Assembly: GCF_900113685.1 (NCBI RefSeq)
Contig: NZ_FOQG01000005.1
Coordinates: forward strand, 1-64,000
From: Nocardioides psychrotolerans
GTDB taxonomy: Bacteria > Actinomycetota > Actinomycetes > Propionibacteriales > Nocardioidaceae
Reading direction: 5' to 3'
DNA length: 64,000 nt
Both the position numbers and the translations under genes were made by a program. Positions 40,639-44,412 of this stretch are shown here, piece by piece. Below the pieces are notes generated by a model that was not told the origin of the DNA, did not search any database, and saw only the letters and a program-made list of their open reading frames with translations. Every line of letters starts with the position of its first letter. Within the stretch, counting starts at the first letter, position 1.

Positions 40639-42102
40639 GTGCGTAGAGCAAAGATCGTCTGCACCCTGGGCCCCGCGACCAACTCCGAGCGTCGCATCCG
40701 CGAGCTCGTGTATGCCGGGATGGATGTCGCCCGGCTCAACATGAGCCACGGCAGCCACGCGGATCACGCGGAGGCTTACCGCCTCGTCCGGGAGGCCGCT
40801 GATGCCAGCGGTCACGGGGTCGGCATCTTCGCCGACCTCCAAGGGCCCAAGATCCGGTTGGAGACCTTCGCCGACGGCCCGGTCCTTCTACGGCGCGGTC
40901 AGGTCTGGACGATCACGACGCGTGACGTGCCGGGTGACGCGGAGATCTGCGGCACGACGTACAAGGGGCTGCCCGGCGACGTCCACGTCGGCGACCCGAT
41001 CCTCATCGACGACGGCAAGGTGCGCCTCCGGGTCACGGCCGTCGAGGACACCGACGTCACGTGCGAGGTGCTCGTCGGGGGCAAGGTCAGCAACAACAAG
41101 GGCATCAACCTGCCCGGTGTCGCGGTGTCGGTGCCGGCCCTGTCGGAGAAGGACATCGATGACCTGCGCTTCGCGCTGAGCCTGTCGGTTGACTTCATCG
41201 CGTTGAGCTTCGTGCGCAACGCCGCCGACGTCGAGGACGTGCGCCGGATCATGGACGCGGAGGGTGTGCGCCTCCCGGTGATCGCGAAGATCGAGAAGCC
41301 GCAGGCGATCGAGAACCTCGACGAGATCATTGCCGCCTTCGACGGCGTCATGGTCGCGCGCGGTGACCTGGGCGTGGAGTGTCCTCTGGAGGACGTGCCG
41401 TTCCTGCAGAAGCAGATCATCGAGAAGGCTCGCCTCAACGCCAAGCCGGTGATCGTGGCGACCCAGATGCTGGAGTCGATGATCACCAGCCCGTCGCCGA
41501 CGCGCGCGGAGACCAGCGACGTCGCCAACGCGGTGCTCGACGGTGCCGACGCGGTGATGCTCTCGGGCGAGACCAGCGTGGGGGAGCACCCGATCCACGT
41601 CGTCGAGACGATGGCGCGCATCATCACCGCCACCGAGCGGCATGCCCTCGAGCCGCGGGAGTTCGGTCAGTTCGAGACCATCGACTGGGATCCCCACACG
41701 CGCGGTGGCGTGATCGCCAAGGCGGCCGACGAGGTCGCGACCCGGGTGGGAGCGTCCTACGTCGTGGCGTTCACGCAGAGCGGTGACTCGGCGCGGCGGA
41801 TGTCGCGGTTGCGTGGTCCGATCCCGGTGCTGGCGTTCACCCCGGAGGCGCGGGTGCGCTCGCAGCTCTCGTTGACGTGGGGGGTCGAGACGTTCAAGAC
41901 GGTCGCGGTCGACCACACCGACGAGATGGTGCGCCAGGTCGACGAGCAGCTGTTGCAGATCGGCCGGGTCGAGGAGGGTGACCTGGTGGTGATCATCGCC
42001 GGCAGCCCCCCGGGGATCCCGGGCTCGACCAACGCGCTTCGCATCCATCGCATGGGCGACGCGATCAACGAGGCCGCCCCGGCCTACAAGCGCCAGGGTT
42101 GA
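40639..42102 (+). CDS. pyk: Pyruvate kinase
   Basis: Last step of glycolysis: phosphoenolpyruvate plus ADP to pyruvate plus ATP. 487 aa. 'KIVCTLGPATNSERRIRELVYAGMDVARLNMSHG' starts the barrel. 'LPVIAKIEKPQAIENLDEII' has the active-site Lys and the Mg-binding Glu follows. The PK B domain lies at ~70-165, and the C-terminal allosteric domain starts near 345. It has its own leaderless GTG start after gltD. Note that pyk, the tRNA, pdtaR and polA keep the order seen in other actinobacteria. Confidence 0.97.
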   Translation: MRRAKIVCTLGPATNSERRIRELVYAGMDVARLNMSHGSHADHAEAYRLVREAADASGHGVGIFADLQGPKIRLETFADGPVLLRRGQVWTITTRDVPGDAEICGTTYKGLPGDVHVGDPILIDDGKVRLRVTAVEDTDVTCEVLVGGKVSNNKGINLPGVAVSVPALSEKDIDDLRFALSLSVDFIALSFVRNAADVEDVRRIMDAEGVRLPVIAKIEKPQAIENLDEIIAAFDGVMVARGDLGVECPLEDVPFLQKQIIEKARLNAKPVIVATQMLESMITSPSPTRAETSDVANAVLDGADAVMLSGETSVGEHPIHVVETMARIITATERHALEPREFGQFETIDWDPHTRGGVIAKAADEVATRVGASYVVAFTQSGDSARRMSRLRGPIPVLAFTPEARVRSQLSLTWGVETFKTVAVDHTDEMVRQVDEQLLQIGRVEEGDLVVIIAGSPPGIPGSTNALRIHRMGDAINEAAPAYKRQG

Positions 42103-42135: not shown

Positions 42136-42756
42136 ATGGCCAGACGAGACGGAGGATCCGACGACTCGACGGGTGCGCTCCGACTGCGGTGGTTCGCCAC
42201 GCTGCTGTCGCGGTTCGCTGCGGGCTCGCTGATCGACCTCGGGTCGGGGCACGGGCTGTTCGCCCAGCTCGCGGCCGACCGGGGGTGGCGCGTGACTGCC
42301 CAGGACGCTCGCGGCGACCGCTTCCCCGAGGACGACCGGATCGCGTGGGAGGTCTCCGACGTACGCGACGTGGACCTGCTTGGCTACGACCTGATCTCGT
42401 GCCTGGGGCTCTTCTACCACCTCACGCTCGAGGACCAGCTCTCCCTGCTCGACCGCTCGCGCGGTGTCCCGATCATCCTCGACACGCACGTCGCCAACGA
42501 GCGTCCGGCGCCGATGACGTTGTCGGAGCCGGTCGCTCCGCAGGGCTATCGCGGTCGCTATTACCGCGAGCCCGACCAGGTGACCCACTCCACGGCCTCC
42601 TGGGGCAACGCGGACTCCTTCTGGCCGCGGCCGCAGGCGCTCTACCGGATGCTCGACGAGCGCGGCTACGACGTCATGGCGTCGGTGCCGTTCTACCTCC
42701 CGACCAGGACCTTCTTCCTGTGCCTGCCCCGCGGTGCTGCGGCCGTCACTGCTTGA
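42136..42756 (+). CDS. Class I SAM-dependent methyltransferase
   Basis: 206 aa. Motif I 'SLIDLGSGHGLFAQLAADRG' (about 29-48) binds S-adenosylmethionine; the acidic end of beta-2 reads 'VTAQDAR' and motif IV 'YDLISCLGLFYHL' fits the Rossmann-like fold. The substrate is unknown. The C-terminal third ('YYREPDQVTHSTASWGNADSFWPRPQALYRML') is like enzymes acting on small molecules or tRNA, but this does not settle it. Its end overlaps the converging HTH/LAGLIDADG gene by 11 bp. Confidence 0.88.
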   Translation: MARRDGGSDDSTGALRLRWFATLLSRFAAGSLIDLGSGHGLFAQLAADRGWRVTAQDARGDRFPEDDRIAWEVSDVRDVDLLGYDLISCLGLFYHLTLEDQLSLLDRSRGVPIILDTHVANERPAPMTLSEPVAPQGYRGRYYREPDQVTHSTASWGNADSFWPRPQALYRMLDERGYDVMASVPFYLPTRTFFLCLPRGAAAVTA

Positions 42757-43489
42757 GCCCGATCAGCTCGTCGAGCCGGGCGACGCCCGCGCGCGTCGAG
42801 ACGCTGATGTGGTGCCGGTTGGACTGGCGCCACGGCACGTCGACGAGGTCGAGCGCCCAGCAGCACAGCTCCCGGATGTCGTCCGAGTAGTTGGTGAACT
42901 GCCAACGGGGGTAGACGTAGTACTTCATGCGGCCGGCGACCATCCGGCGTACGCGGTTGCTGACGCGCGAGCCGTCCGAGTGGAAGAGGCCCCGGAGGAA
43001 CGGCGCGGGGTGGCTCTCGAGGATCGTGCGCTGCCAGTCCTCGAGGACGATCGGCCGGCTGTGCTTGGGGCCGGGACCGTGCTGGGGGAGCAGGCAGGGC
43101 CAGTGCTTCCAGGCCTTCTGCACGACGACACAACCGGGTGCCCGGACGAGGTGGGTGGCGGCGGACGGGTGGGTCGTCTCGAGAAGTCGACGCACGTCCA
43201 CGATGATCTCGGGATACGCGATGTCGCAGGAGATGCGCAGGGCGAAGCAGCGTCGAGCCGTCGAGACGCAGCCGTCGCCGAGGTAGTAGCCGAGAAGCGC
43301 CGCGTAGACCTCTGGGACCAGGGGCGCGTCGCTGCACCGGGGGCACTCGAGGCCCCGGGGAGTGGGGCTGGTGTCACGCCAGGTGCGCAGTGTCGAGCGA
43401 GCGACCCCGGACAGACGCGCGCAGGCCGACAGCGACAGACCGGAGGCCAGCAGAGTCTCGGCCTGGCGGCGACGGTCGGGGGAGTGCAT
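42746..43489 (-). CDS. HTH protein with LAGLIDADG-endonuclease-like motifs
   Basis: 247 aa. Residues ~4-40 form a helix-turn-helix ('AETLLASGLSLSACARLSGVARSTLRTW'). Cys49 and Cys52 ('CPRC') may begin a small zinc site. Two LAGLIDADG-like blocks follow: 'AALLGYYLGDGCVS' (~64-76) and 'FLRGLFHSDGSRVS' (~164-177), each with the acidic residue at the position used for catalysis in homing endonucleases. 'HTH plus LAGLIDADG' proteins beside tRNAs recur in actinobacteria; whether they cut DNA or act as regulators is unknown. ATG 43489 lies 55 bp downstream of the tRNA, same strand. Confidence 0.8.
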   Translation of the reverse strand: MHSPDRRRQAETLLASGLSLSACARLSGVARSTLRTWRDTSPTPRGLECPRCSDAPLVPEVYAALLGYYLGDGCVSTARRCFALRISCDIAYPEIIVDVRRLLETTHPSAATHLVRAPGCVVVQKAWKHWPCLLPQHGPGPKHSRPIVLEDWQRTILESHPAPFLRGLFHSDGSRVSNRVRRMVAGRMKYYVYPRWQFTNYSDDIRELCCWALDLVDVPWRQSNRHHISVSTRAGVARLDELIGLKQ

Positions 43490-43544: not shown

Positions 43545-43617
43545 TGCCCCGGGTGGGATTCGAACCCACACTGAATGCTGTTTGAGAGCATCGACTCTGC
43601 CGTTGGTCTACCGGGGC
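43545..43617 (-). tRNA. tRNA with CAA anticodon and short (class I) variable arm
   Basis: 73 nt, no encoded CCA. Acceptor GCCCCGG pairs with CCGGGGC, discriminator A. The D arm has a 3-bp stem GAC/GTC and the GG pair. Anticodon stem ATGCT/AGCAT with loop CTCAAAC gives anticodon CAA (Leu, UUG codons). The variable region is only 5 nt (TCAGT). T arm GTGGG/CCCAC with loop TTCGAAT. Fold and conserved bases are convincing, but bacterial tRNA-Leu normally has a long class II variable arm, so its charging identity is uncertain. Confidence 0.85.
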
Positions 43618-43800: not shown

Positions 43801-44412
43801 GTGACCCAGGACGCCACCGCCACCCCCGTGAGCCGCACCGTCGTGATCGCCGAGGACGAGACCCTGATCCGGATGGATCTCGCCGAGATGCTCACCGAGG
43901 AGGGTTACCGCGTCGTCGGTGAGGCGGGCGACGGCGCGAAGGCCATCGAGCTGGCCGAGGAGCTCAAGCCCGACCTGGTCATCCTCGACGTCAAGATGCC
44001 CGTCCTGGACGGCATCGCGGCTGCCGAGGCCATCGCCGGCAAGCGCATCGCCCCGGTCGTCATCCTGACGGCCTTCTCCCAGCGAGACCTCGTCGAGCGT
44101 GCTCGTGATGCCGGAGCGATGGCCTACCTGGTGAAGCCCTTCTCCAAGACCGACCTGCTTCCCGCCATCGAGATGGCCGTGAGCAGGTTCGCGGAGCTGG
44201 GCATGCTGGAGGCCGAGGTCGCTGACCTCACCGAGAGGCTGGAGACGCGCAAGGCGGTCGACCGGGCCAAGGGGGTCCTGCAGAAGCAGCTCCACCTCTC
44301 CGAGCCGGAGGCGTTCCGGTGGATCCAGAAGACAGCGATGGACCTCCGCCTGTCCATGCGTCAGGTGTCGGACGGTGTCGTGGAGCACGGCCCGATGCAG
44401 ACCGGAGACTGA
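43801..44412 (+). CDS. pdtaR: PdtaR-type response regulator with ANTAR domain
   Basis: 203 aa. Receiver domain ~12-130 with the acidic pair 'AEDE', phosphoacceptor Asp63 ('LVILDVKMP'), Thr in 'VILTAF' and Lys in 'YLVKPF'. ANTAR domain ~138-195 ('LTERLETRKAVDRAKGVLQKQLHLSEPEAFRWIQKTAMD') binds paired RNA hairpins and prevents termination. In mycobacteria PdtaR is phosphorylated by PdtaS and regulates ethanolamine and other genes. No partner kinase is in the window. It lies between pyk and the liv operon. Confidence 0.93.
   Translation: MTQDATATPVSRTVVIAEDETLIRMDLAEMLTEEGYRVVGEAGDGAKAIELAEELKPDLVILDVKMPVLDGIAAAEAIAGKRIAPVVILTAFSQRDLVERARDAGAMAYLVKPFSKTDLLPAIEMAVSRFAELGMLEAEVADLTERLETRKAVDRAKGVLQKQLHLSEPEAFRWIQKTAMDLRLSMRQVSDGVVEHGPMQTGD

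Follow-up and report, generated by a model that had tools for sequence, protein, structure and literature searches.

The window analysed here, a stretch of 64,000 nucleotides of the Nocardioides psychrotolerans genome, contains a tRNA gene with an ordinary job and an unusual build. Judged from its sequence, its fold and its relatives, the gene very probably encodes a working tRNA-Leu(CAA) with a naturally short (class I) variable arm, charged by leucyl-tRNA synthetase (LeuRS) and delivering leucine to UUG codons. UUG thus appears to be read in this bacterium by a leucine tRNA without the long extra arm. Cytosolic tRNA-Leu is described as class II in the accessible parts of reviews.

The tRNA gene and its fold

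The gene and its diagnostic parts are as follows.

43545..43617, minus strand: tRNA-Leu(CAA), class I (ARAGORN, Rfam RF00005 and a class II tRNA-Leu model)
43582..43584, minus strand: anticodon CAA, within the loop CUCAAAC (sequence and ARAGORN)
43570..43574, minus strand: variable region UCAGU, 5 nt, with U48 as its last base (sequence)

By ARAGORN the window has a single tRNA gene, a minus-strand tRNA-Leu(caa). Rfam likewise gave one tRNA, a full-length RF00005 match at 43545-43617(-) with 54.9 bits against a gathering score of 29, which places the cloverleaf within that family. Position 1 lies at 43617 and the discriminator A73 at 43545, and CCA is absent from the gene-encoded sequence. The sequence gives an acceptor stem of 7 bp, a D stem of 3 bp, and anticodon and T stems of 5 bp each. 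A cloverleaf with a CAA anticodon and a class I variable region had been proposed from the sequence alone, and these results confirm it. The D stem, which stops at three pairs because positions 13-22 are C.A, had been called unusual; the length was measured correctly, but the genome's own class II leucine tRNAs also have 3 bp, so this is a normal tRNA-Leu feature. A class II tRNA has a variable region of at least 10 nt that forms an arm, and here it is 5 nt. The 8/4 or 9/3 acceptor and T stems of allo-tRNAs are likewise absent, the covariation-backed arrangement being 7/5. Another loop register or isotype was considered and ruled out by the CUCAAAC loop, the 5-bp stem and covariation.

Covariation was assessed in an alignment of 66 class I UUR sequences of 73 and 74 nt with less than 92% identity, from which 13 named loci with other lengths or unusual sequences had been excluded beforehand. 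Standard pairs filled 98.8% of 1320 pair cells, and two-sided changes were observed at 17 of 20 pairs. When partners were slid by 1-3 columns as a control, 36-54% of cells paired; the fold is therefore supported far beyond chance.

The short-arm sequences share further traits. C12-G23 together with C13 was present in all 135 distinct class I UUR sequences and all four intermediate ones, while 31 of 32 long UUR sequences had G12-C23; the lone exception has C13 and is probably the 10-nt sequence of family f4. The window tRNA fits the short-arm family, which combines C12-G23 and C13 with GGYAGAG or a close variant and a variable region of 5-10 nt, the D-loop part of these traits having been fixed by several of the search patterns. 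The variable region was 5 nt in each of 100 distinct class I CAA sequences parsed, where class I was defined as 6 nt or less and 55 of the sequences came through a pattern with fixed spacing. Some relatives have intermediate variable regions of 7-10 nt; among them, five UAA tRNAs of family f4 have C at position 20a.

Leucine tRNAs of the genome

The assembly is a 4.5 Mb draft in 43 contigs, rated 100% complete. RF00005 matched 46 places with default settings and 49 when the limit was set to E 10. At the 46 default loci, ARAGORN found each leucine anticodon once: CAG, UAG and GAG on long-armed tRNAs, CAA and UAA on short-armed ones. The second short-armed gene is

G000:C31:2984-3057, minus strand: class I tRNA-Leu(UAA) (ARAGORN; loci L002 and L070)

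and adjoins, by eye, an apparent peptide deformylase gene.

A covariance model was built from 12 class II leucine tRNAs, including E. coli leuX and the three CUN tRNAs of this genome. Searched against the genome, it scored these three at 97, 87.5 and 80 bits; the window tRNA came fourth with 66.8 bits, the class I UAA tRNA reached 57.6, and every other place scored 46.8 bits or less. Eleven class II UUR loci of relatives, some of them in the model itself, scored 93-103 bits, and leuX, also part of the model, 85.3 bits. No class II UUR tRNA-Leu was detected in the genome by RF00005 with ARAGORN, by pattern or by this model, nor was a second CAA tRNA, leaving the window gene as the sole CAA tRNA found. 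A tRNA-Lys(UUU) was also missing from the RF00005/ARAGORN list and from a pattern search, so the draft or the searches are imperfectly complete and a class II UUR gene could have gone unseen.

Two other tRNA loci drew attention. The candidate tRNA-Gln(UUG), at C31:41042-41120, scores poorly (38.6 bits) and looks odd (80 nt). By eye, a copy of the 3' half of tRNA-Arg(UCU) and the full gene share a contig, some 50 kb apart (G000:C32:51739-51800 and C32:1790-1862), which is what the two ends of an integrated element would look like.

Proposed recognition by leucyl-tRNA synthetase

The long arm had been assumed in the sequence-only reading to be needed for recognition by LeuRS. This premise fails, since the arm is dispensable for E. 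coli LeuRS according to the accessible part of PMC9976931. A73 is there said to matter to the enzyme; A15-U48, G18G19 and A20a are essential for leucylation in E. coli, and variants of E. coli tRNA-Leu without the arm keep their activity. The same part of PMC9976931 reports that human mitochondrial tRNA-Leu(UUR), which has no long arm, is leucylated via A73 and A14, the latter named 'as for E. coli tRNA-Leu'.

The window tRNA carries the complete set drawn from that part of the paper: A73, A14, A15-U48, G18G19 and A20a. All six identity elements were found together in 99 of 100 distinct CAA sequences and 35 of 35 UAA sequences of class I, and in 17 of 17 class II CAA and 14 of 15 long UAA sequences; the patterns used to retrieve many of these loci prescribe some of the elements. 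Of the 39 parsed non-leucine tRNAs of the same genome, only two had all six; one more was unparsed. A20a was missing from four intermediate sequences. In the 34 distinct short or intermediate sequences that were retrieved by BLAST and not by pattern, A14, A15, U48 and A73 were present without exception.

Among the TIGR00396 matches listed for this genome there is one LeuRS (C19:245533-247977, two joined pieces, 908.9 bits); the other five of the seven matches score under about 68 bits. In seven genomes of family f4 (genera g6 and g7), a second, divergent LeuRS-like gene adjoins the normal one, with 615-671 bits when joined (for example G052:C59:35793-40806).

In the mechanism we propose, the bacterial LeuRS of the genome would charge the tRNA via its acceptor end (A73) and would also read the elbow and hinge (A14, A15-U48, G18G19 and A20a), not the variable arm. 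The tRNA-Leu(CAA) would then supply leucine at UUG codons, and the class I CAA and UAA pair would substitute for the class II UUR isoacceptors, with class II tRNAs retained for CUN. We infer that the window tRNA is expressed, receives CCA and is charged by LeuRS.

Meaning of UUG codons

A small test with solved-structure homologues gave leucine at 7 of 22 TTG sites, where it was the commonest residue, as compared to 55 of 124 CUN sites; chain 5wrp was assumed to be mycobacterial. Because 22 pairs are too few, a comparison was made with seven congeners that have a class II CAA tRNA, using nine window genes, four to nine of which aligned per genome. TTG codons of N. psychrotolerans stood opposite a leucine codon in 68 of 76 aligned residue pairs (CTG 48, CTC 20), and the remaining partners were TAC (4), ATC (2), ATG (1) and GTC (1); the 76 pairs are not independent, since no more than 17 TTG sites, each compared with up to seven related genomes, gave rise to them. 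The leucine share of 89% was the same at the genome's own CTG (971 pairs) and CTC codons (941 pairs). TTA does not occur in the nine genes, so the comparison covers UUG only. With CTG or CTC as the usual partner in congeners whose CAA tRNA is class II, these alignments indicate that UUG is still leucine.

Distribution among Actinomycetota

The sequence-only reading had made conservation in relatives a test of the gene, and genome searches bore conservation out. Of 296 Actinomycetota genomes, 95 had matches to a strict pattern, in 104 rows; seven rows failed a stem or length test, and 15 were dropped by hand (14 from family f15, in which the pattern had matched GAAC inside a class II arm, and G059). 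The 82 rows left placed a short-arm UUR tRNA-Leu in 73 of the 296 genomes, a lower bound because the pattern fixes the D loop, A37 and the T loop. These genomes span, by eye, 17 families; 53 have the UAA form only, 12 the CAA form only and eight have both. A scan of named genomes with a narrow pattern gave at least 120 loci, each class I CAA by ARAGORN, as the pattern required, from Nocardioides, Mycobacterium, Micromonospora, Actinoplanes, Cellulomonas, Kribbella, Pseudonocardia, Glycomyces, Nocardiopsis and other genera; the 80 titles listed among its matches were all actinobacterial as read.

Within the genus (23 genomes, N. psychrotolerans included), the UAA tRNA was class I in 21 genomes and unmatched in two, and the CAA tRNA was class I in 13, class II in six and unmatched in four; these counts leave out L135 (G016:C51:11950-12250), an extra short 'Leu(CAA)' with G37 that diverges from the family. 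The four genomes unmatched for CAA by the UUR pattern (G001, G003, G013 and G014) do have a UAA gene, of class I; the gap would be explained by a variant D loop or by a UAA tRNA that reads UUG. Elsewhere in the order, family f3 has a class II UAA tRNA in five of five genomes and a class I CAA tRNA in four of five, while in family f2 and in most of the sampled f4 genomes it is the other way round, with UAA class I and CAA class II. A phage UAA tRNA used as query had no match in E. coli genomes. Among 72,556 records labelled 'plasmid', the window tRNA had a single match, an 11.85 Mb Nonomuraea replicon.

The locus and its neighbours

The genes around the tRNA are as follows.

40639..42102, plus strand: pyruvate kinase (pyk), a conserved neighbour (Pfam)
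42136-42756, plus strand: methyltransferase, between the pyruvate kinase and LAGLIDADG genes (Pfam)
42746..43489, minus strand: free-standing HTH/LAGLIDADG_3 gene, with the ATG at 43489 assumed as its start (Pfam LAGLIDADG_3, 30.5 bits)
43801..44412, plus strand: ANTAR response regulator, a conserved neighbour that marks the locus (Pfam)

By tblastn, the ANTAR gene was found at 26 and pyruvate kinase at 25 of 27 order-level class I CAA loci. Among the 120 named loci listed, which are at most 8 kb long with the match often off centre, the counts were 105 and 26. No tblastn match to the methyltransferase was obtained in either set as fetched. Loci of class II CAA genes have the same neighbours, the ANTAR gene at 22 of 23 and pyruvate kinase at 18 of 23, and in genus g11 either class can occupy the locus (class I in G218, class II in G228). 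Since the same ANTAR and pyruvate kinase genes flank either class, this is an old locus whose tRNA has been exchanged; judged by these neighbours, the class I and class II CAA forms have replaced each other in place between pyk and the ANTAR gene. Conversion of one class I gene by the other (CAA and UAA) within a genome was considered and rejected, as it has left no recent trace: identity is 0.755 within and 0.762 between genomes (12 genomes, permutation p 0.89).

An HTH/LAGLIDADG gene beside the tRNA had been pointed out from the sequence; its LAGLIDADG domain was found again by Pfam, and the HTH is our own reading of the N-terminus. With its start at 43489, the gene follows the tRNA in the same orientation after about 55 bp. 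It had no NCBIfam or PHROGs match up to E 0.01. Its relatives occur beside the same tRNA at 12 of the 27 order-level class I loci and at 12 of the 120 named loci listed, and in 23 of these 24 loci the tblastn match starts 30-130 bp 3' of the class I tRNA on the same strand. They also adjoin class II CAA genes, in full length at three of 23 loci (L302, L303 and L318) and as fragments in L304 and L305, so the gene does not explain the short arm and was rejected as its driver. It is probably a homing endonuclease that exploits this locus irrespective of tRNA class and has no part in tRNA function.

Alternative roles for the tRNA

The tRNA might instead be specialised or non-translational, as part of a regulatory or mobile cassette with the LAGLIDADG gene, UUG being left either to the UAA tRNA alone or to a class II tRNA that escaped detection. 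The LAGLIDADG gene close downstream, here and at the other order-level loci that have it, would suit such a role, as would the four genus genomes without a CAA match to the pattern; the tRNA-Lys(UUU) that was not found means that other tRNAs may have been missed too. We nevertheless consider this highly unlikely. Three kinds of search yielded no class II CAA gene in the genome; in a relative assembled as a single contig (G002), a pattern that admits both classes matched one CAA and one UAA gene only, both class I; and 15 of the 27 class I loci have no LAGLIDADG match. Less likely still is an identity switch, in which another synthetase charges the tRNA and UUG is reassigned or ambiguous: the arm that marks bacterial tRNA-Leu is missing and leucine stood at 7 of 22 TTG sites in the solved-structure test, but UUG pairs with leucine codons in the congeners, all the named LeuRS elements are present, and the window tRNA outscores every listed non-leucine tRNA of the genome on the tRNA-Leu model. 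Both roles had been offered in the sequence-only reading, and neither fits a sole detected CAA tRNA whose codon aligns with leucine codons.

Phages and the origin of the short form

Short leucine tRNAs of this kind are also carried by phages. A mycobacterial class I CAA tRNA matched 146 of 50,697 phage records. Individual phages with short tRNA-Leu genes include Mycobacterium phage Bonray (GAG and a divergent CAA), Bacillus phage P59 (UAG and UAA), Lactobacillus phage ATCC 8014-B2 (UAG), Rhodococcus phage Francesca (UAG), Pseudomonas phage ZC03 (UAA) and Pseudomonas phage vB_PseuGesM_254 (UAG and a divergent CAA). Among at least 120 viral contigs fetched by pattern, ARAGORN found a short UUR tRNA-Leu in 118 (108 UAA and 18 CAA genes); of the 126 genes listed, 125 have A73 and 105 an acceptor stem with at least six of seven pairs. 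Short-arm CUN tRNA-Leu genes (UAG, GAG and CAG; L323-L328, L384 and L458) were observed as well in phages and viral contigs. In the viral contigs listed and the six phages together, 14 of 20 short CUN genes, which the pattern had not asked for, have C12-G23, C13 and A14A15.

The locus is also a target of integration. Phage Baka, assigned by its record to genus Omegavirus, has next to its integrase the 3' half of a class I Leu(CAA) gene, in the manner of an attP site. This stretch was matched in 239 of 248 genomes of genus g12, which we take to be Mycobacterium. Among the matches listed, a second 3'-end copy lies 6-11 kb away in G564, G370 and G458 (for example G564:C492:125407 and 136072), and such paired ends suggest small integrative elements at the locus. 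In the accessible part of PMC10865867, cluster J phages such as Omega are reported to share 44 bp with the tRNA-Leu-CAA of M. smegmatis (attB-11), and phage Gaia to integrate at attB-11 without rebuilding the tRNA, bringing its own copy instead. We found Gaia's copy to be class II and 84 nt long. If the M. smegmatis gene is class I, as the Baka stretch implies, Gaia lysogens would be a natural swap from class I to class II.

Phages are a plausible vehicle of the class swap. We put forward, tentatively and as something short of probable, that a lineage of short-arm tRNA-Leu moving between phages and chromosomes has repeatedly replaced class II UUR genes of Actinomycetota in place, via integration that targets tRNA genes, including tRNA-dependent lysogeny. 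The replacements would have been tolerated because bacterial LeuRS reads the elbow rather than the arm, and may have been favoured by escape from toxins or nucleases that read the arm. The class I form may instead have arisen only by loss of the arm within Actinomycetota, with phages acquiring it there; this is a real possibility, though one that we likewise stop short of calling probable. The 3' T-arm sequence and D-loop core common to class I and class II tRNA-Leu, and the intermediate variable regions of some relatives, argue for arm loss; the classes differ also at 12-23, at 13 and in the acceptor stem, and the same short family (UAG and UAA) occurs in phages of Bacillota and Pseudomonadota hosts, both of which argue against it.

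Comparison with known tRNAs

The window tRNA shares with E. coli leuX (L301) and other class II tRNA-Leu the elements A73, A14, A15-U48, G18G19, A20a and G21A22, the 3-bp D stem and the codon set. It differs from them in its variable region, 5 nt as compared to 13-19 nt, in having C12-G23 and C13 where class II tRNA-Leu has G12-C23 and mostly G13, and in its acceptor stem. The short tRNA-Leu of phages (P59, ZC03, Bonray and ATCC 8014-B2) belong to the same family, with a CCAA..GGYAGAG core and an AGT-type variable region; they differ in being phage-borne and in occurring with CUN anticodons too. Mycobacterium tuberculosis has five tRNA-Leu, of which any short ones would presumably be the UUR pair. 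An account of its tRNA set (PMC11541572) hints, in the accessible part, at short tRNA-Leu that are there neither named nor discussed.

Human mitochondrial tRNA-Leu(UUR) resembles the window tRNA in its leucine identity through A73 and A14, its missing arm and its codon box (PMC9976931, accessible part). It is, however, organellar and has its own LeuRS, and the anticodon branch of its transcript is partly unfolded, whereas the window tRNA has a full cloverleaf in a bacterium that also retains class II leucine tRNAs. Allo-tRNAs and selC* tRNA-Cys are likewise natural non-canonical tRNAs that came from genome searches (PMC7609411, accessible part); they have longer acceptor stems and longer variable arms, unlike the short-armed window tRNA.

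In the open-access literature we found no paper describing class I tRNA-Leu in bacteria as such, or across a phylum. The accessible part of PMC6582537 mentions in passing one short Leu(UAG) in a mycobacterial tRNA cluster, and in the tRNAscan-SE 2.0 paper a human Leu-CAA gene lacking the arm is taken to be near a Met tRNA. Isotype classifiers that lean on arm length could misfile short-arm tRNA-Leu genes.

Implications

A pair of seemingly essential leucine isoacceptors is class I in the phylum of mycobacteria and antibiotic producers. This is relevant to toxins and drugs that recognise tRNA by its shape, to bldA-type regulation through UUA and UUG, and to the exchange of essential tRNA genes between phages and hosts. 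The more interesting question is how the short form replaced the long one at the same locus; the two forms, trading places there, provide a natural test of what LeuRS requires in tRNA-Leu.
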